IMG/VR virus record: IMGVR_UViG_3300045996_000515
Location: 1 to 24,033 of that record
DNA: 24,033 bases
From: a virus
Strand: one strand, 5' to 3'
A program made the translations under genes and the position numbers. Below, piece by piece: positions 530 to 20,836 of the stretch (its first letter is position 1; each line of letters begins with the position of its first letter). The notes beneath the pieces are model-generated. The model saw nothing but the letters and a program-made list of their open reading frames with translations. It ran no database searches and was not told where the DNA came from.

Positions 530-1732
530 TTAAGCTAGTTGTAATTCTTTAGCAAGTATTTGTGTAGCCATTGCAGCATCAAGCAAGCCACCTGAAACAG
601 CCTTGGTAAGCGCATCAATTAGGGTGTTTATCCCCTGTAATCCTTTTTGTTTGTTCTCTTTTAATAAACTTAAGTGCTCGTAAGAAGCCACAAGGCGAAG
701 GTTCTCAGGAACTCCGATAAACTTTCCAAAGGATTGAGTAAACTGATCCGCTTCAGGAATGATTGTATCCTGGTAAACCTGAAGTATTGAGTTCTTTACA
801 TTTTCAAACGTTGCATTTTTGTTTGAGAACATATTGATGTTAAGCCCAAAGGAATCAACTAGTGTGATAAGGTTGGAATCAACTTCCTCGAACAACATCA
901 TGTCCTTGGTTGCAAAGCTCATGGCTTGCCACTTAAGAGAGGCTTCAGTAAGCTTTATTTTGCGCTGGCCTATTCCAATACCGTACTCAGTTGTAAATTG
1001 TTCCTCTACTTTTTTACGCTCATCAGAAGTTAAAGGAATAGCCCCCATTGAATCCTTTGACTCATTTGAAAGAATACCAAGCGGCCCACGTTGAGCCATT
1101 GTTACATTTCTGAACTCGTATGCTAGCTTTATATTAGAGAGCACATACTGAAGCGAAGTAACGGGGCTTAATCCTAATACCGGGTGATTAATATTCGTTA
1201 AGCGGGAATAAAGAATATCGTTAGTATCATAGTTTTCTTTTGTTCCGCTTGCGTCTTTATACTCGTACCCTTTGATTATATCATCTACTGATACCTGGCG
1301 GAATATCTTTCCAGATAATATCGGCTGAATATAGTTTGAAGAGATATTAAATAAGGTTGCAGGGTACTTGTATAGGTTGGATGGCTTATTCTTGAACATG
1401 AACTGGTTCCCGTAAACCTGCTCCTGTATTTTGAACTCTTTTAAAAAGCCGTTCATGGTTTGGATAGGGTTAGGGTTCTGGATAAGCTTTTGCAAATCCT
1501 TATCCTCCTTACGGTTCCCTTTTGCATCAACCAGGTAAATCTCCATGTTACAGAACATCGAAGCCTTACGGTCTATAACTGCTTTTAATTGTGGTATTGT
1601 ATTGTAAAGCTCGAATGGCTCATCTGTTGAAATCCAAACAGGGCCTTTTTGACCAACTACCTGGCTGAAGTAAACGCTATTGCCAAATAATCTTCTGTTT
1701 AAGTATTGTTTTAGGCTATTGGAAAACCCCAT
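530..1732 (-). CDS. Phage portal protein (HK97-like family)
   Basis: The product is 400 residues, the usual size for an HK97-type portal, the ring through which DNA enters and leaves the capsid and onto which the tail is joined. Support: the N-terminal part has the pattern PQLKAVIDRKASMFCNMEIYL, followed by NPNPIQT and an EQVYGNQF-like segment typical of the portal clip and wing regions. A GLSPVTSLQ segment is followed by a long helix, and a late LVDSFGLNINMF segment matches the 'lgvP..l' region of the family. The ATG at 1732 is the only good start. The gene is transcribed leftward, away from the protease and capsid genes, which is not the usual single-strand head cluster. A divergent promoter lies just upstream. 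Confidence 0.88.
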   Translation of the reverse strand: MGFSNSLKQYLNRRLFGNSVYFSQVVGQKGPVWISTDEPFELYNTIPQLKAVIDRKASMFCNMEIYLVDAKGNRKEDKDLQKLIQNPNPIQTMNGFLKEFKIQEQVYGNQFMFKNKPSNLYKYPATLFNISSNYIQPILSGKIFRQVSVDDIIKGYEYKDASGTKENYDTNDILYSRLTNINHPVLGLSPVTSLQYVLSNIKLAYEFRNVTMAQRGPLGILSNESKDSMGAIPLTSDERKKVEEQFTTEYGIGIGQRKIKLTEASLKWQAMSFATKDMMLFEEVDSNLITLVDSFGLNINMFSNKNATFENVKNSILQVYQDTIIPEADQFTQSFGKFIGVPENLRLVASYEHLSLLKENKQKGLQGINTLIDALTKAVSGGLLDAAMATQILAKELQLA

Positions 1733-2699: not shown

Positions 2700-3929
2700 A
2701 TGGAAAAAGAACAAAAAGAGTTACTTGATGCTATAAAAGGTCAGGTAACTGAACTAGTAGAAAAAGGAGCTGAGGCTTCCAAAAAAGAAATCGATTCTGT
2801 AAAAGCAGAGTTGAAAAAACTTGAAGATGCTTCTAAGTCAACAGAAGTTATCGAAGAAGTAAAGCGTTTAGCGGCTGACGTTAACGCAATGAAAGAAAAA
2901 GGAAAAGAAACTCACACTGCAAGAGTTAACACATTAGCTGATGCAATTGTTGAAGGTTTCAAAACCCTAAACAAAGAAGGTGCTTTAAAAGGTATCAAAA
3001 AAGGTGAGTGGAAAAACATTGAGGTAAAAGCTGCCGGAACAATGACTACTGCTAACATTGATGCAGTTGGTACATCTTCTATTCCTTATTCTTTAGCTTC
3101 AATTGAGCCAGGTGTTTCAAGAACTCAAAGACGTTCACCTTTCTTACTTCAGTTAGTTAATACTGGAAGCACAAACAAAGGTATCGTTCAGTGGGCTGAA
3201 CAGGTTAACGTTGATGGAGCTGCTAACGTAACTGCTGAAGGTGCTGCTAAATCACAAGCTGATTTTGACATCCAGGAAGCATCTGCTAAGGTTGAAAAAG
3301 TTACAGCTTACATTAAGGTTTCTACTGAAATGCTTGATGATGTTGATTACATGGATGCCGAAATCCGTAACGAGCTTATGGAAATTGTAAGGTTGAAAAT
3401 GGATCAGCAAATCTTAGCTGGTAACGGTACATCACCTCAGTTAAAAGGTATCCTTCAGTATGCAACTTCTTTTGCAGCAGGAACATTTGCAGCAGCAATC
3501 AACGGAGCTACAAACTTTGACTCATTGAGAGTAGCAATCAACCAGATTGTAAAAGAAAACTTTACTCCTAATTACATTGTAATGCACCCTTCTGATGTTG
3601 CTGCAATGGACTTGGCAAAGGATTCTACTGGACAGTATATTATGCCTCCATTCTCAACAGTAGGTAACACTGTGATTAAGGGCTTACCTGTAATTGAGAA
3701 CACTGGTGTTACTGAAGGTGATTTCTTAGTAGGTGACTTCACAAAGTCAATCGTTCGTTTAAGAAAAGATGCTCAGATCAGCGTTGGACACGAAAACGAT
3801 GATTTCACTAAGAACCTTGTAACTATCCTTTGTGAGATGAGAGGTGTTCACTACATCAAATCAAACCACACGAAGGCATTTGTTAAAGGAACATTTGCTA
3901 CTACAAACGCTGCTTTAGAAACAGCCTAA
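2700..3929 (+). CDS. Major capsid protein (HK97 fold)
   Basis: The product is 409 residues. Residues 1 to about 75 are a charged coiled coil, the scaffold (delta) domain of HK97-type capsid proteins. A likely cleavage zone lies near residues 108-114, just before GTMTTANIDAVG. The rest fits the fold: SIEPGVSRTQRRSPFL, an E-loop-like segment around IVQWAEQVNVDG, VEKVTAYIKVSTEMLDD, the spine-helix region MDQQILAGNGTSPQLKGI, and IVMHPSDVAAMDL. The preceding gene encodes the matching protease. Codon use is more uniform (GCT, GTT, GGT) than in neighbouring genes, as expected for the most highly expressed product. A strong terminator follows 19 bases after the stop. Confidence 0.95.
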   Translation: MEKEQKELLDAIKGQVTELVEKGAEASKKEIDSVKAELKKLEDASKSTEVIEEVKRLAADVNAMKEKGKETHTARVNTLADAIVEGFKTLNKEGALKGIKKGEWKNIEVKAAGTMTTANIDAVGTSSIPYSLASIEPGVSRTQRRSPFLLQLVNTGSTNKGIVQWAEQVNVDGAANVTAEGAAKSQADFDIQEASAKVEKVTAYIKVSTEMLDDVDYMDAEIRNELMEIVRLKMDQQILAGNGTSPQLKGILQYATSFAAGTFAAAINGATNFDSLRVAINQIVKENFTPNYIVMHPSDVAAMDLAKDSTGQYIMPPFSTVGNTVIKGLPVIENTGVTEGDFLVGDFTKSIVRLRKDAQISVGHENDDFTKNLVTILCEMRGVHYIKSNHTKAFVKGTFATTNAALETA

Positions 3930-3948: not shown

Positions 3949-3978
3949 AATACCGGGTGAAATACCCCGGTATTTTTT
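3949..3978 (+). terminator. Rho-independent terminator after the capsid gene
   Basis: A perfect 9-bp stem AATACCGGG (3949-3957) / CCCGGTATT (3966-3974) with an 8-base loop is followed by a T tract to 3978. It lies inside the late operon, so it probably lets most transcripts stop after capsid and a minority read on into the connector genes. Confidence 0.85.
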
Positions 3979-4004: not shown

Positions 4005-4187
4005 ATGGCTAAGAAGGAAAAAGTAGTAAAAGAAACTAAGGCAATTGAAACTCCTGAGATAACAACAACAGAGGTTAAGATTGTTGGATTAAGTGGTGCA
4101 AAGCACCTGGTAGCGGGAACTGAATATACCGTAGGTGCTGAGGTTGCAAAGAACCTTATCGCTAAAGGTTGGGCTAAGTTAGCCTAA
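4005..4187 (+). CDS. Small head-region protein, unknown
   Basis: The product is 60 residues, with a lysine/glutamate-rich N-terminal half and a C-terminal part GTEYTVGAEVAKNLIAKGWAKLA. The pattern 'G..Y.V....A..LI.KG.A' is known from small proteins encoded between capsid and connector genes in many phages, where its role is not settled. It has an A-rich leader (aaaacaaagctc) and no Shine-Dalgarno site. It is the first gene after the capsid terminator and the last before the tRNA. A minor head or joining protein is the best guess, from position only. Confidence 0.75.
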   Translation: MAKKEKVVKETKAIETPEITTTEVKIVGLSGAKHLVAGTEYTVGAEVAKNLIAKGWAKLA

Positions 4188-4194
4188 ATAATAT

Positions 4195-4267
4195 AGCGAG
4201 TTAGAGCAGTTGGTAGCTCGTTGGGTTCATTACCCAAAGGTCGAAGGTTCGAGTCCTTCACTCGCCA
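4195..4267 (+). tRNA. tRNA-Met(CAT), initiator-like
   Basis: A full 73-base cloverleaf can be drawn: acceptor 4195-4201 with 4260-4266, D stem GAGC/GCTC, anticodon stem TTGGG/CCCAA, anticodon CAT at 4228-4230, T stem GAAGG/CCTTC with loop TTCGAGT, and discriminator A4267. CCA is not encoded. Several features are those of initiator, not elongator, tRNA: three G:C pairs in a row next to the anticodon loop, an A11:U24 pair in the D stem, and an unpaired 1:72 position (A1, C72). Base 37 is T where A is usual. It lies on the sense strand of the late operon, between two protein genes, and must be cut from that transcript or read from it. Confidence 0.9.
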
Positions 4268-4281
4268 CAAAAATATAAGTT

Positions 4282-4410
4282 ATGGTAACGGTTAATTTAA
4301 AGTGCCCTATTTGCGATAAAGATCATATTAAAGCGGTTCGTAATTACGCGAAATCAGCTCAGATTAAATGCTGCAAAAAGGTTATAACATTTAGCGCAAA
4401 GAAAGACTAA
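4282..4410 (+). CDS. 42-residue zinc-binding microprotein
   Basis: The ATG at 4282 opens a 42-residue frame ending at TAA 4408-4410, starting MVTVNLKCPICDK and ending IKCCKKVITFSAKKD. A CPIC pair and a CC pair about 20 residues later could hold one zinc ion, like a short zinc ribbon. It fills the gap between the tRNA and the next gene, with 14 bases before and 6 after, in the same direction. This tight fit and the cysteine pattern argue that it is real. Its role is unknown; small zinc proteins of this sort occur in phages as nucleic-acid binders or translation regulators (compare Com of phage Mu, only by general type). Confidence 0.65.
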   Translation: MVTVNLKCPICDKDHIKAVRNYAKSAQIKCCKKVITFSAKKD

Positions 4411-4416
4411 CAGTTA

Positions 4417-4923
4417 ATGGGATTACTCATAGTAAAGGAAGATTTCACAGGAAAGTTCAAGATAGCCACAGGGTTATTTGATAAGCTTGACGCGTACATC
4501 ACACGCTATGAGGAAACTATTCTTATTGATCTTTTAGGAGCTACGTTATTTGATTTATTTAAGGCTGATGTAAATACTACAACCAAGGAACCTCAAACTC
4601 CTATCTATCAAAACCTTTACAATGAATTTCACCAGGATTACAACGGGTGTATAAAGAAGAGTAGAGGATTAAAAGATATGCTTTTAGCTATGATATACTT
4701 TGAGTTCAAGCGGGATGAAAAGTATAAATCAACTACCGGAGGCACAACCGTAGCAACAATAGAAACAGGCAGAGAGGCGGGATTTTCTGAGGAACCAATA
4801 TTTGTAAAGTATAACGAAGGGATAACAACCTATTGCGCTATACAATGGTATTTAAATAAGAATTTCTCTTTGTATCCTGACTTTAACGGGCAGTATAAAG
4901 GATTAGCTCACTGGGCTCTGTAA
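4417..4923 (+). CDS. Probable head-tail connector protein
   Basis: The product is 168 residues, beginning MGLLIVKEDFTGKFKIATG. The helical pattern 'YEETILIDLLGATLFDLF' followed by a second helical part (KDMLLAMIYFEFKRDEK) and a C-terminal 'YNEGITTYCAIQWYLNKN' resembles the mostly alpha-helical adaptor proteins that sit below the portal (gp6-like) and Bacteroidota phage proteins of that size. Position supports this: it follows the capsid and small head genes and precedes a neck-like gene. The stop codon overlaps the next start (TAATG), which suggests translational coupling. Family placement is by pattern and context, not by a sure motif. Confidence 0.6.
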   Translation: MGLLIVKEDFTGKFKIATGLFDKLDAYITRYEETILIDLLGATLFDLFKADVNTTTKEPQTPIYQNLYNEFHQDYNGCIKKSRGLKDMLLAMIYFEFKRDEKYKSTTGGTTVATIETGREAGFSEEPIFVKYNEGITTYCAIQWYLNKNFSLYPDFNGQYKGLAHWAL

Positions 4924-11198: not shown

Positions 11199-12362
11199 TT
11201 ATCCCCTGGCTTTCTTCAAGGCATCATCAATCCTACCCTGTTTTTTTCTTTTTGCGTAGTCTTGGGTGGTATCTATTTTCTCATGTCCCAGGGCATCGGA
11301 TATTATGCGCGGGTTGTCGGTTACATCATCTAAGTGATCCTTAATAGTATGCCGGGCGGTGTGGTTGGTTAAGCTTTTCCCGGTTGCGACAATTGCCGGG
11401 ATGGCTCTTAGCGCATCGTTCACTCTCCTGGTTGCGTTCTTTATTTCCTTGGCTAGTATTTTCTCATCCTTGAAATGTTCTGGCCTGAGTAAAGGGAAAA
11501 GTAGATCCGTTTCGCTTTTTCCAGAAAAATTAAAGTATTCCAGTATTTCCTTAGCTTCCTTGTTGAGTTCGATAATCTGATCTGGCTTTTCAAACCTTCT
11601 GACCTTTCGCATTTTATATTTTAAATAGTTACCGTGAATGTTCGATTTCCGAACAATACACATATCCGAAATACGAACCCCGGCCATGATATACTCAAAT
11701 AAATAGATTAACCGGGCCTCATGCTTCCATCCTGTTAGTTCAGCTTTACGGATTGCGTTAATCTCCTCCTTGGTAAATACATCCTTTGACTTACTCTTTC
11801 CCTTGGCTCTTTTGCGGTCAACTTTAAAATATACCATTGGATTTTTATCCATTGGATAAAGCCCTTTATTAATAGCCAGTTTGAATATCCCGGCAATGGG
11901 TTTAAAATGATTATCTATTGAATCCGCTGTTAAGAACTCTCCTTTGTTGTTTTTCTTTGATCTTAAAACTTCCTCATACTCTTTTAATAGTTTGAGGGTA
12001 ATGTTTGATAATAGAACATCCCCCGCATAATTAATAAAAGCTTCGAGCCAGTAAGTATAGTTATCCCTTGAACCTCCAACGGCATACCCTTCTAAATACT
12101 CATCTTTTAAGAAGCCGATTTTTAGATCGTTCGCCTGGTCCGTTTCTGCATACTGGGCATAAAGCTTTCCTATTTCTTTATTTAACTTTTGATGATTAGG
12201 GTTTGAGGGCAGAACCTTTCCAATCGGGTTGCCATGCTTCCAGTCAACAGCCGGTATAAATAGGTTTGTAGGAATATCTCTTTTTGTTTTACCTTTGCCA
12301 AGTCGAAAGTATAATCTAAATGTACCATCGGCACGTTCTTTTCCTTTTAATGTTTTAGCCAT
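11199..12362 (-). CDS. int: Tyrosine recombinase (phage integrase)
   Basis: The product is 387 residues, typical of Bacteroidota phage integrases. The N-terminal 80 residues are an arm-binding-type domain, residues about 85-185 a SAM-like core-binding domain, and about 195-380 the catalytic domain. The catalytic set is complete: Arg230 in AGVRISD, a lysine in the KYKMRK beta hairpin (about 250), His334 and Arg337 in NHTARHT, His360 in LGHEKIDTT, and nucleophile Tyr369 in QDYAK. It should integrate and, with a directionality factor, excise the phage at the attP site that begins directly at its start codon. The leftward message could start from a TAAATTTG box (complement of 12409-12416) that overlaps an arm-type repeat, which would allow self-regulation. 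Confidence 0.95.
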   Translation of the reverse strand: MAKTLKGKERADGTFRLYFRLGKGKTKRDIPTNLFIPAVDWKHGNPIGKVLPSNPNHQKLNKEIGKLYAQYAETDQANDLKIGFLKDEYLEGYAVGGSRDNYTYWLEAFINYAGDVLLSNITLKLLKEYEEVLRSKKNNKGEFLTADSIDNHFKPIAGIFKLAINKGLYPMDKNPMVYFKVDRKRAKGKSKSKDVFTKEEINAIRKAELTGWKHEARLIYLFEYIMAGVRISDMCIVRKSNIHGNYLKYKMRKVRRFEKPDQIIELNKEAKEILEYFNFSGKSETDLLFPLLRPEHFKDEKILAKEIKNATRRVNDALRAIPAIVATGKSLTNHTARHTIKDHLDDVTDNPRIISDALGHEKIDTTQDYAKRKKQGRIDDALKKARG

Positions 12363-12479: not shown

Positions 12480-12639
12480 AACCTTTGCAGGACTAGAGAG
12501 ATAAAGGGAACGGCTGAAAATCAAGGAATTGCCCAGGTGGCGAAATTGGCAGACGCACCATCTTGAGGGGGTGGAATTTCCCGCTGTCAACAAATACAAT
12601 ATCAGTTAGTTATAAAAATACTGCGATAGATTTGCGACA
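12480..12639 (+). other. attP core: 5' part of a tRNA-Leu(GAG) gene
   Basis: Bases 12531-12574 fold as the first half of a tRNA-Leu: acceptor GCCCAGG, T8-G9, D stem GCG/CGC with an AAATTGGCAGA loop, and an anticodon arm CCATC-TTGAGGG-GGTGG with anticodon GAG at 12565-12567. After this the sequence leaves the tRNA pattern: no T arm and no CCTGGGC partner for the acceptor follow. This is what an attP identity block looks like when the integrase targets a tRNA gene near the anticodon or variable arm. A promoter-like AACCTTTG (12480-12487) lies upstream and could drive the restored tRNA after integration. The GCGACA repeats flank the block. Phage genes on both sides show that this copy is not integrated here. 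Confidence 0.75.
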
Positions 12640-18129: not shown

Positions 18130-18338
18130 TGATAGTAAATATATGCCGGGGCTGCGGATATAAAGCCAAGACAATAGCAGAGCACTTTAAACATACGGAC
18201 GAATGCCAAGGAAGGTACAGTTATACAGACTTTTTAGCAAGCAACCCAAACCAAGAAACAATAATCCAACGCCATTACCTGGACTATGAGAGCCATTTAA
18301 AGGTAAAGCAAAATAATACTAATAAAGATTTAAGATGA
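18129..18338 (+). CDS. Small zinc-finger protein
   Basis: The product is 69 residues. Cys6 and Cys9 (CRGCG), His19 or His22, and Cys26 form a C2HC-type single finger. The rest is polar and hydrophilic. It overlaps the previous stop by one base and the helicase-methyltransferase start by four (ATGA), so it is likely coupled in translation to that enzyme and might help it bind DNA; this link is inference. Confidence 0.65.
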   Translation: MIVNICRGCGYKAKTIAEHFKHTDECQGRYSYTDFLASNPNQETIIQRHYLDYESHLKVKQNNTNKDLR

Positions 18339-20836
18339 TTGCAGAATATAAGGAGTTTTTAGAAAATAAGATTGTTATCGCTGAAGAATACGGGACTGAG
18401 ATTGAAGCCTCAAACCTTTCGCCAGTTCTTTTACCTCACCAAAGAGATATAGTTGAATGGTCAATTAAAGGAGGTCGCAGGGCCATTTTTGCCAGCTTCG
18501 GTCTAGGTAAAACAGTTATGCAGCTTGAACTAGCAAAGCAGGTTATAGCAATCGAAAACAGGCCCTTTTTAATCTGTATGCCACTTGGAGTTGTAGGGGA
18601 GTTTAAAAGAGATAATGAGTTTTTAAATACTGGGCTTGATGTTCAGTATATTAAAGATACTGATACGATTGAGCAGTACGAACCTAAGATATACGTTACC
18701 AATTATGAGCGCGTTCGTATGGGGGATATTGATCCTGAGAAGTTCGCAGGTGTATCATTTGATGAGGCTAGTATTTTAAGAAACCTTAAAACTGAAACAA
18801 CAAACTACGTCCTAGCTTATTTCAAAAAGATCAAGTACAGATTTGTTGCAACAGCCACTCCAACTCCAAACGACTTTATAGAGATATTAAACTATGCCGA
18901 TTACTTGGGAGTAATTGACAGGGGTCATGCCTTAACGCGATTCTTTCAAAGAGATTCAACAAAAGCAGGGTCCTTGACCTTATACCCAAACAAAAAAGAG
19001 GAGTTCTGGAAATGGGTATCTACTTGGGCGGTGTTTATCAATAAACCTTCAGACTTAGGTTATGATGATACAGGCTATAACTTACCGAAACTAAACTTTC
19101 ACGAGGTTGAAGTTGAAAATTTAACGGATGATGTGCTTTTAAACAAGCGAGGCGAGATCGTAATTTTTAAGGATAACACAAAAAGCCTTGTTGATGTTGC
19201 AAGGGAAAAAGGATGTTCGATTGATTTACGTGTTAATAAAGCTTACGAGATCTTTTCTCAAAACCCTAACGAAAATTATATCCTTTGGCATCACAGGGAA
19301 GCCGAACGGATTGCAATCGAAAAGCGTTTTCATGGCCATGATTTACTTAGTGTTTGGGGTGCACAACCTAATCATGTAAAAGAGGATTTATTGATAGGTT
19401 TTTCAAATGGGGATTATCAGATCCTTTCCAGTAAAGCAGTTATAGCAGGGTCAGGCTGCAATTTCCAGAAGCATTGCCGCAATATGATATACGTTGGTAT
19501 TGATTACAAGTTCAATGACTTCATTCAATCTCTACATAGAATTTTCAGATTTGGCCAAACCGAAGAAACTAATGTTTGGGTGATATTCACACAGAACGAG
19601 CGCGATGTTTTAAAAGCGTTAAAAGAGAAGTGGAAAAAACACATTGAGCTTCAGAGTGAAATGATAAACCTGGTAAGGGAGTACGGATTAAACAGTGATA
19701 AAATTAAAGCAGATATGAAAAGACAAATATTTAGCAAACCAAGAAAAGCAACAATCGGAAATGCCACGGTATATAATGATGATACGGTAAATGTTCATGC
19801 AAATATGCCAGACAATTCAACCGATATGATCCTAACCTCTATACCCTTTGGAGATCATTACGAGTATTCAGACAACTATAATGACTTTGGACATAATCAC
19901 GGCAATGAGAAGTTCTTTGAGCAGATGGACTTTTTAACCCCTCACTTATTAAGGACTTTAAAACCTGGTAGAGTTGCAGCAATCCATGTAAAAGACAGGA
20001 TCCGTTACAGCTACCAAAATGGAACTTCATTTACTACCATAGATGATTTTAGCGGCAAAACAGTAGCTCACTTTGTAAAGCATGGATTTTACCTTATGGG
20101 TAAGATCACAGTAACAACGGATGTAGTTAGGGAGAATAACCAAACCTACCGCCTGGGGTGGAGCGAACAGTGCAAGGATGCTTCTAAAATGGGCTGCGGG
20201 ATTCCTGAGTACATTCTTTTAATGCGCAAAGCTCCAACAGAAAGTAACAACGCTTATGCTGATGAGCCCGTAGTAAAAACTAAACAAGATTACACCCGCG
20301 CAAACTGGCAGCTTGATGCTCACTCATTCTGGAAATCAGATGGAAACAGGTTCCTAAGTTCTGAGGAAATGAAATCAATGGATTTTAAACAGATTGTGAG
20401 GTACTGGAAAAAGCATAACCTGGAAAGCATCTATTCATTCAAAGAACATTTAAAAGCGTGTGAGGATTTAGAAGCTCAGGATAAATTAAGTGCCTTGTTT
20501 ATGACTTTGCCACCTCATTCAAATAATGAGCTTGTATGGACTGACATTAACAGGATGAATACCCTAAACACCAACCAGGCGAACCAAAAGAAAGAGAAAC
20601 ACATTTGCCCTTTACAGCTAGATATCATCGAACGATTAATGTTCAGGTTTTCAAGTGAAGGGGAGTTAATTGACGATCCGTTTGGAGGGTTATTCTCAAC
20701 AGCTTATAAGGCCCTGGAATTAAAAAGGAGAGCTATAAGTGCAGAGTTGAACCCTGAGTATTATGATGATGGGCTTTTCTACCTAAAGGCTATTGAGTAT
20801 AAAATTAATGTACCTACTCTTTTTGAACTTGTATGA
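18335..20836 (+). CDS. SNF2-like helicase fused to a DNA methyltransferase
   Basis: The product is 833 residues in two enzyme halves. Residues about 30-440 are a superfamily 2 helicase/translocase: PHQRDIVEW (Q-type site), Walker A GLGKT 56-60, Walker B FDEAS 142-146, TATPTP 173-178, and motif VI SLHRIFRFGQ 399-408. Residues about 470-820 are an amino (N4/N6) methyltransferase of the beta order: catalytic motif IV TSIPFG at 501-506 comes first and the SAM-binding motif I DPFGGLFST at 781-789 last, with VVRENNQTYRLGW between. The usual SPPY/F motif has Ile at its first proline position. I recall similar fusions in other phages. No nuclease domain is present, so it should modify, not cut, DNA, perhaps to resist host restriction. 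Confidence 0.9.
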   Translation: MIAEYKEFLENKIVIAEEYGTEIEASNLSPVLLPHQRDIVEWSIKGGRRAIFASFGLGKTVMQLELAKQVIAIENRPFLICMPLGVVGEFKRDNEFLNTGLDVQYIKDTDTIEQYEPKIYVTNYERVRMGDIDPEKFAGVSFDEASILRNLKTETTNYVLAYFKKIKYRFVATATPTPNDFIEILNYADYLGVIDRGHALTRFFQRDSTKAGSLTLYPNKKEEFWKWVSTWAVFINKPSDLGYDDTGYNLPKLNFHEVEVENLTDDVLLNKRGEIVIFKDNTKSLVDVAREKGCSIDLRVNKAYEIFSQNPNENYILWHHREAERIAIEKRFHGHDLLSVWGAQPNHVKEDLLIGFSNGDYQILSSKAVIAGSGCNFQKHCRNMIYVGIDYKFNDFIQSLHRIFRFGQTEETNVWVIFTQNERDVLKALKEKWKKHIELQSEMINLVREYGLNSDKIKADMKRQIFSKPRKATIGNATVYNDDTVNVHANMPDNSTDMILTSIPFGDHYEYSDNYNDFGHNHGNEKFFEQMDFLTPHLLRTLKPGRVAAIHVKDRIRYSYQNGTSFTTIDDFSGKTVAHFVKHGFYLMGKITVTTDVVRENNQTYRLGWSEQCKDASKMGCGIPEYILLMRKAPTESNNAYADEPVVKTKQDYTRANWQLDAHSFWKSDGNRFLSSEEMKSMDFKQIVRYWKKHNLESIYSFKEHLKACEDLEAQDKLSALFMTLPPHSNNELVWTDINRMNTLNTNQANQKKEKHICPLQLDIIERLMFRFSSEGELIDDPFGGLFSTAYKALELKRRAISAELNPEYYDDGLFYLKAIEYKINVPTLFELV

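Follow-up and report, generated by a model that had tools for sequence, protein, structure and literature searches.

An initiator-class tRNA gene with U37 in the head operon of a probable Bacteroidota phage

Gene order and the 229-bp insertion

The stretch of DNA analysed here, referred to throughout as the window, is an entire virus record of 24,033 bases, as opposed to a bacterial genome, and probably represents a temperate phage of Bacteroidota. Its genes follow the order portal, S78 protease, HK97 capsid, 60-aa ORF, tRNA, 42-aa ORF, tail-ward genes, integrase and S24 repressor. The prohead protease S78 (1845–2690) and the major capsid protein of HK97 type (2700–3929) are encoded on the plus strand, as is the 60-aa ORF (4005–4187), which is kept between the capsid gene and a 168-aa gene in relatives. 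Between the capsid gene and the 60-aa ORF lies a hairpin at 3949–3974, and L002, L151 and L187 have a hairpin of other sequence in the same place. The portal gene (530–1732, minus strand) opposes the rest of the head operon. Misassembly as the source of the minus-strand portal was ruled out because related contigs have the same reversal, and its presence in L187, L188, L190, L191, L195, L197 and L198 makes the reversed portal a feature of the clade. Elsewhere in the window, a plus-strand gene at 18335–20836 encodes an 833-aa protein in which an N6/N4 DNA methylase domain is joined to a helicase region of SNF2 type, the latter below cut-off.

In the window, 229 bp (4188–4416, plus strand) separate the 60-aa ORF, measured from its stop, from the start codon of the 168-aa gene. 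They hold the tRNA gene at 4195–4267 and, starting 14 nt past it, a 42-aa Cys-rich ORF (4282–4410, plus strand). This ORF has a CxxC...CC arrangement and is zinc-ribbon-like; no family scored above cut-off and no homologue was found in the relatives. The 168-aa gene (4417–4923, plus strand) is the first conserved gene downstream, and its position fits a head-tail connector; it had no family match, and a scan with the 168-aa protein gave no relatives. Related viral loci were collected by their capsid, 24 by sequence and 52 by profile in overlapping sets, and a capsid scan of genome contigs gave no relatives. In the contigs with the closest layout, reversed portal included (L187, L188, L190, L191 and L195), the 60-aa homologue ends right against the start of the 168-aa homologue, and of the approximately 50 contigs related by their capsid gene none has a tRNA between the capsid and 168-aa genes. 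Judged from this comparison, the head operon has taken up 229 bp in the form of the tRNA and the 42-aa ORF. As the tRNA is missing from this site in every relative, selection on it is not measurable.

The tRNA lies in the sense direction, 8 nt past a stop codon and 14 nt ahead of a start codon. A reading made from the sequence alone had placed a phage-encoded, sense-oriented tRNA inside the head operon, and its flanks bear this out, with the capsid gene and 60-aa ORF on one side and the 42-aa ORF and 168-aa gene on the other. No plus-strand promoter or terminator of note was found beside the tRNA, which suggests that it is probably transcribed together with the head operon. The close spacing to both neighbours would also suit a tRNA that serves as a signal for RNase P and 3' processing and so parts the capsid mRNA from the downstream mRNA. 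We consider such punctuation quite improbable, as a processing signal need not retain the initiator determinants described below and the hairpin at 3949–3974 already lies 3' of the capsid gene. In addition, the nearest relatives have nothing at the insertion site, so no terminator was replaced. A tRNA standing in place of a terminator was likewise not supported, there being no gap at the site in these relatives.

Class of the tRNA

ARAGORN found a single tRNA in the window, at 4195–4268 on the plus strand with anticodon CAT, and Rfam matched RF00005 to 4195–4267 at 62.1 bits (gathering threshold 29, E 1.7e-11). The cloverleaf has a folding energy of −26.3 kcal/mol and a z of −3.85, and 0 of 200 shuffles were as good. 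Read by hand, the tRNA is AGCGAGU UA GAGC AGUUGGUA GCUC G UUGGG UUCAUUA CCCAA AGGUC GAAGG UUCGAGU CCUUC ACUCGCC A. The D stem, GAGC/GCUC, gives A11:U24, and the anticodon stem, UUGGG/CCCAA, has three loop-proximal G:C pairs (G29–G31 with C39–C41). The loop itself (32–38) is UUCAUUA, and position 37 is therefore U (T at 4231). A1 stands opposite C72 with no Watson-Crick 1:72 pair, the discriminator is A73, and CCA is absent from the gene, where A73 is followed by CAA. The features named by the sequence-only reading (A11:U24, GGG/CCC, T37 and A1/C72) are all present.

Two covariance models were used for classification, R1 from 32 initiators and R2 from 13 elongator-Met/Ile2 CAU tRNAs, with the window tRNA excluded from both. 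It scored 90.1 bits with the initiator model and 71.0 bits with the elongator-Met/Ile2 model. Among the controls, some of which are training members, E. coli metZ scored 97.9 (R1) and 51.0 (R2). This is in contrast to the elongator controls metU (55.2 and 89.8) and ileX (41.3 and 89.6), in which the order of the two scores is reversed relative to the window tRNA. Every elongator in the alignments has C11:G24 and every initiator A11:U24; the window tRNA has neither the C11:G24 nor the paired 1:72 that mark elongator tRNA-Met and lysidine tRNA-Ile2. The A37 phage initiator of L207 shares 90% identity with the window tRNA, as against 74% for E. coli tRNAfMet and 62% for the elongator Met of E. 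coli. Initiator identity had been proposed with model scores as its possible refutation, and these scores left it standing.

Together, ARAGORN, Rfam, the hand reading, the covariance models and the fold identify the 73-nt tRNA(CAU) at 4195–4267 (plus strand) as an initiator-class tRNA. With bacterial tRNAfMet, represented by E. coli metZ, it shares the CAU anticodon, A11:U24, the three G:C pairs at 29–31:39–41, the 1:72 mismatch and the acceptor pairs G2:C71, C3:G70 and G4:C69. It differs from metZ in having U37 rather than A37, U32 rather than C32 and A1×C72 rather than C1×A72, and also in a shorter D loop and a CCA that is not encoded.

The 1×72 mismatch and U37

The sequence-only reading had described both T37 and A1/C72 as unusual, and only the first of these held. 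Among 98 distinct initiators from viral contigs and E. coli, the 1×72 states were C×A (27), T×T (16), C×T (15), T×A (13), A×C (6) and others. A1×C72 is thus a known minority state in which the mismatch is kept, whereas U37 is very rare.

Base 37 was surveyed with the pattern GAGCAGN{1,3}GGTAGCTCGTYGGGYTCATxACCC, counting exact matches only and taking single bases without a read check. More than 120 of the viral matches listed have A37, which is a lower bound. C or G at this position gave 2 matches, both G (L148, 383–456, minus strand; L149, 287–362, plus strand), and T was found in 2 contigs besides the window. With U37, the exact pattern had 0 matches in 84,980 prokaryote genomes, and no exact U37 copy was present among 20,983 places searched across 5,375 E. 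coli genomes. Probe searches of cultured phages likewise found no U37 initiator. When other anticodon stems were allowed, two further viral U37 tRNAs appeared, one in L208, a G+C-rich contig probably from an actinobacterial phage, and one in L209, which going by its IMG number is an isolate-derived record. The five viral U37 tRNAs, those of the window and four others on unrelated contigs, score 87.6–95.9 bits with the initiator model and are otherwise intact, which indicates no obvious decay.

Position 37 is read here from one metagenomic contig and may carry a base-calling error; sequencing or assembly would then have altered one base of an ordinary phage initiator. The variant is seen here in one contig, and the three exact-pattern U37 contigs set among more than 120 A37 viral initiators could include errors. 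We nevertheless think the chance of this slim, given that the tRNA is otherwise flawless and that U37 occurs in four other contigs, including the apparently isolate-derived L209.

If U37 is genuine, its consequences may be considered at the level of start-site choice. In extended pairing, base 37 of the tRNA can face the mRNA base directly before the AUG. U37 might in this way tune initiation in favour of phage mRNAs with A at −1, where A37 would favour U. An A directly precedes the start codon in 15 of the window's 22 genes, as compared with 37 of 84 genes in thinned relatives, and −1 is the sole start-adjacent position at which the window is A-richer. However, the p value is 0.056 in the thinned set and 0.037 in the full redundant set, both uncorrected for 20 positions and for a position picked after the tRNA had been seen. 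Several other positions differ equally in the opposite direction, and the excess of A at −1 in window genes over those of relatives is not significant once corrected. Such tuning appears very improbable.

A second consequence concerns the anticodon loop. A37 makes a triple with G29-C41 in free tRNAfMet (review, PMC4611024), and in the window tRNA this A37 of bacterial initiators is replaced by U37. Since U37 is unable to form the triple in the same way, the shape of the loop is likely to be affected, to benefit or harm, and loss of the triple could weaken the tRNA as an initiator. A37 is conserved in the reference set and is no formylation determinant; U37 makes an ordinary initiator less credible but leaves the class assignment as it is.

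The same features might reflect passive carriage, with a host-derived tRNA gene and a small ORF lodged in a tolerated gap, and U37 and A1/C72 arising by drift under relaxed selection. Consistent with this, the tRNA is a singleton among the approximately 50 related contigs, an insertion at a gene boundary would be harmless there, and changes at position 37 are rare yet present in phage initiators, as in the two with G37. Drift is harder to reconcile with stems that are all intact and with every initiator determinant being kept. At 90 bits, moreover, the tRNA exceeds the 87.4 of the Prevotella initiator in L203 and comes near its closest A37 phage relative, L207 (94.9). We therefore regard passive carriage as possible, though on the unlikely side.

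Other phage initiators and a model of late supply

Initiator tRNA genes are in themselves a common find in phages. To place the window among them we surveyed viral loci whose single tRNA is an initiator, with neighbouring genes named using PHROGs. The initiator tRNA comes after the major head gene in L041, lies one gene past it in L113, and precedes a protease-capsid fusion in L059 and a head protease in L065 and L133. It lies two bases ahead of the small terminase gene in L094 and, in L116 (1168–1242, minus strand), an unrelated phage contig, between the tail sheath and tail tube genes on the same strand. Cases such as L041, L059, L113 and L116 indicate that late-operon initiator tRNAs recur in unrelated phages. 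Other loci have the tRNA beside replication or recombination genes (L029, L061, L082, L096 and L137) or adjoining an integrase (L043, L063, L093, L127 and L138). Structural neighbours account for about one third of single-initiator loci with nameable neighbours, close to the share of structural genes in a phage genome, and enrichment is therefore not claimed. One viral contig has a tandem pair of initiator tRNA genes (L083, 130–310, plus strand). The annotated tRNA-fMet of Stenotrophomonas phage QDWS359 and the tRNAs of L041, which also adjoins the major head gene, and L207, the 90% identical relative, are of the same class as that of the window but have A37; in contrast to these phages, the capsid operons related to that of the window carry no tRNA.

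The window also encodes a tyrosine integrase (11199–12362, minus strand), as expected of a temperate phage. Approximately 155 bp upstream of the integrase start, 12530–12576 (plus strand) resembles the 5' half of tRNA-Leu(GAG), anticodon included, with 44 nt at 93% to a Paraburkholderia copy of that gene. This segment is probably attP, which would direct integration to tRNA-Leu(GAG), and integration into an initiator tRNA gene was rejected on the basis of this match. The temperate phage, tyrosine integrase, S24 repressor and single tRNA nonetheless share the outline of tRNA-dependent lysogeny (PMC10865867). Applied here, the phage would disrupt a tRNA-fMet gene of the host on integration and make good the loss with a copy of its own. 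The window differs in that its probable attP overlaps tRNA-Leu(GAG) rather than the cognate tRNA and is long enough to restore the tRNA-Leu(GAG) half, and in that its tRNA lies in a late operon expected to be silent in the lysogen. Both points argue against this role for the window tRNA, which we consider extremely improbable.

These data allow us to propose instead, at about an even chance of being correct, that the window holds a functional initiator tRNA gene, acquired as a cassette in the late head operon, which supplies initiator tRNA with a gain mostly in resilience. In this model, the phage would have acquired a small cassette of the tRNA and the 42-aa ORF. The tRNA would be transcribed within the late head operon and released from the polycistronic transcript by RNase P and 3' nucleases of the host, and would then gain CCA, be charged by MetRS and be formylated. 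The resulting fMet-tRNA would be added when translation of capsid mRNA peaks. That the phage tRNA would serve initiation on late mRNA, as the sequence-only reading had suggested, appears plausible, and the most likely gain would be resilience, with initiation going on if host tRNAfMet were limiting or cleaved.

Cleavage of tRNAfMet by enteric VapC falls between A38 and C39 (PMC4105405). U37 is one base ahead of this bond, although the cut is that of the enteric enzyme and maybe not of one in this host. Being near the bond cut by VapC-type toxins, U37 may turn the phage tRNA into a poor substrate and may protect it from anticodon nucleases. Some phage tRNAs carry altered anticodon loops that are predicted to let them escape VapC and further anticodon nucleases of the host (PMC10264068), and the loop change in the window tRNA, beside the enteric cleavage site, may be comparable to these predicted cases. 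The same study reports that phages generally avoid carrying tRNA-fMet when its anticodon is the target of VapC (PMC10264068); the window would be either an exception or a solution.

Late initiator supply is the most likely reading in view of the 19-bit lead of the initiator model, the retention of all determinants, the clean insertion, the parallels in other phages and the recurrence of U37. Counting against it could be a site occupied in no relative, the lack of enrichment beside structural genes and the possible weakening of the tRNA by U37. A broader proposal holds that U37 initiators are a phage-only variant of several origins, which sustains initiation after loop cleavage of host tRNAfMet or shifts it to phage mRNAs; this we judge unlikely.

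The role of phage tRNAs has been a question for more than 50 years. An initiator tRNA is not explicable by codon usage and so isolates the other explanations, namely initiation capacity or the replacement of tRNA destroyed by the host. U37 is the part of the finding worth following: found in none of the searched cellular genomes and in several unrelated viral contigs, it is a single-base difference that is testable with tRNAfMet-cutting nucleases and start-site reporters.
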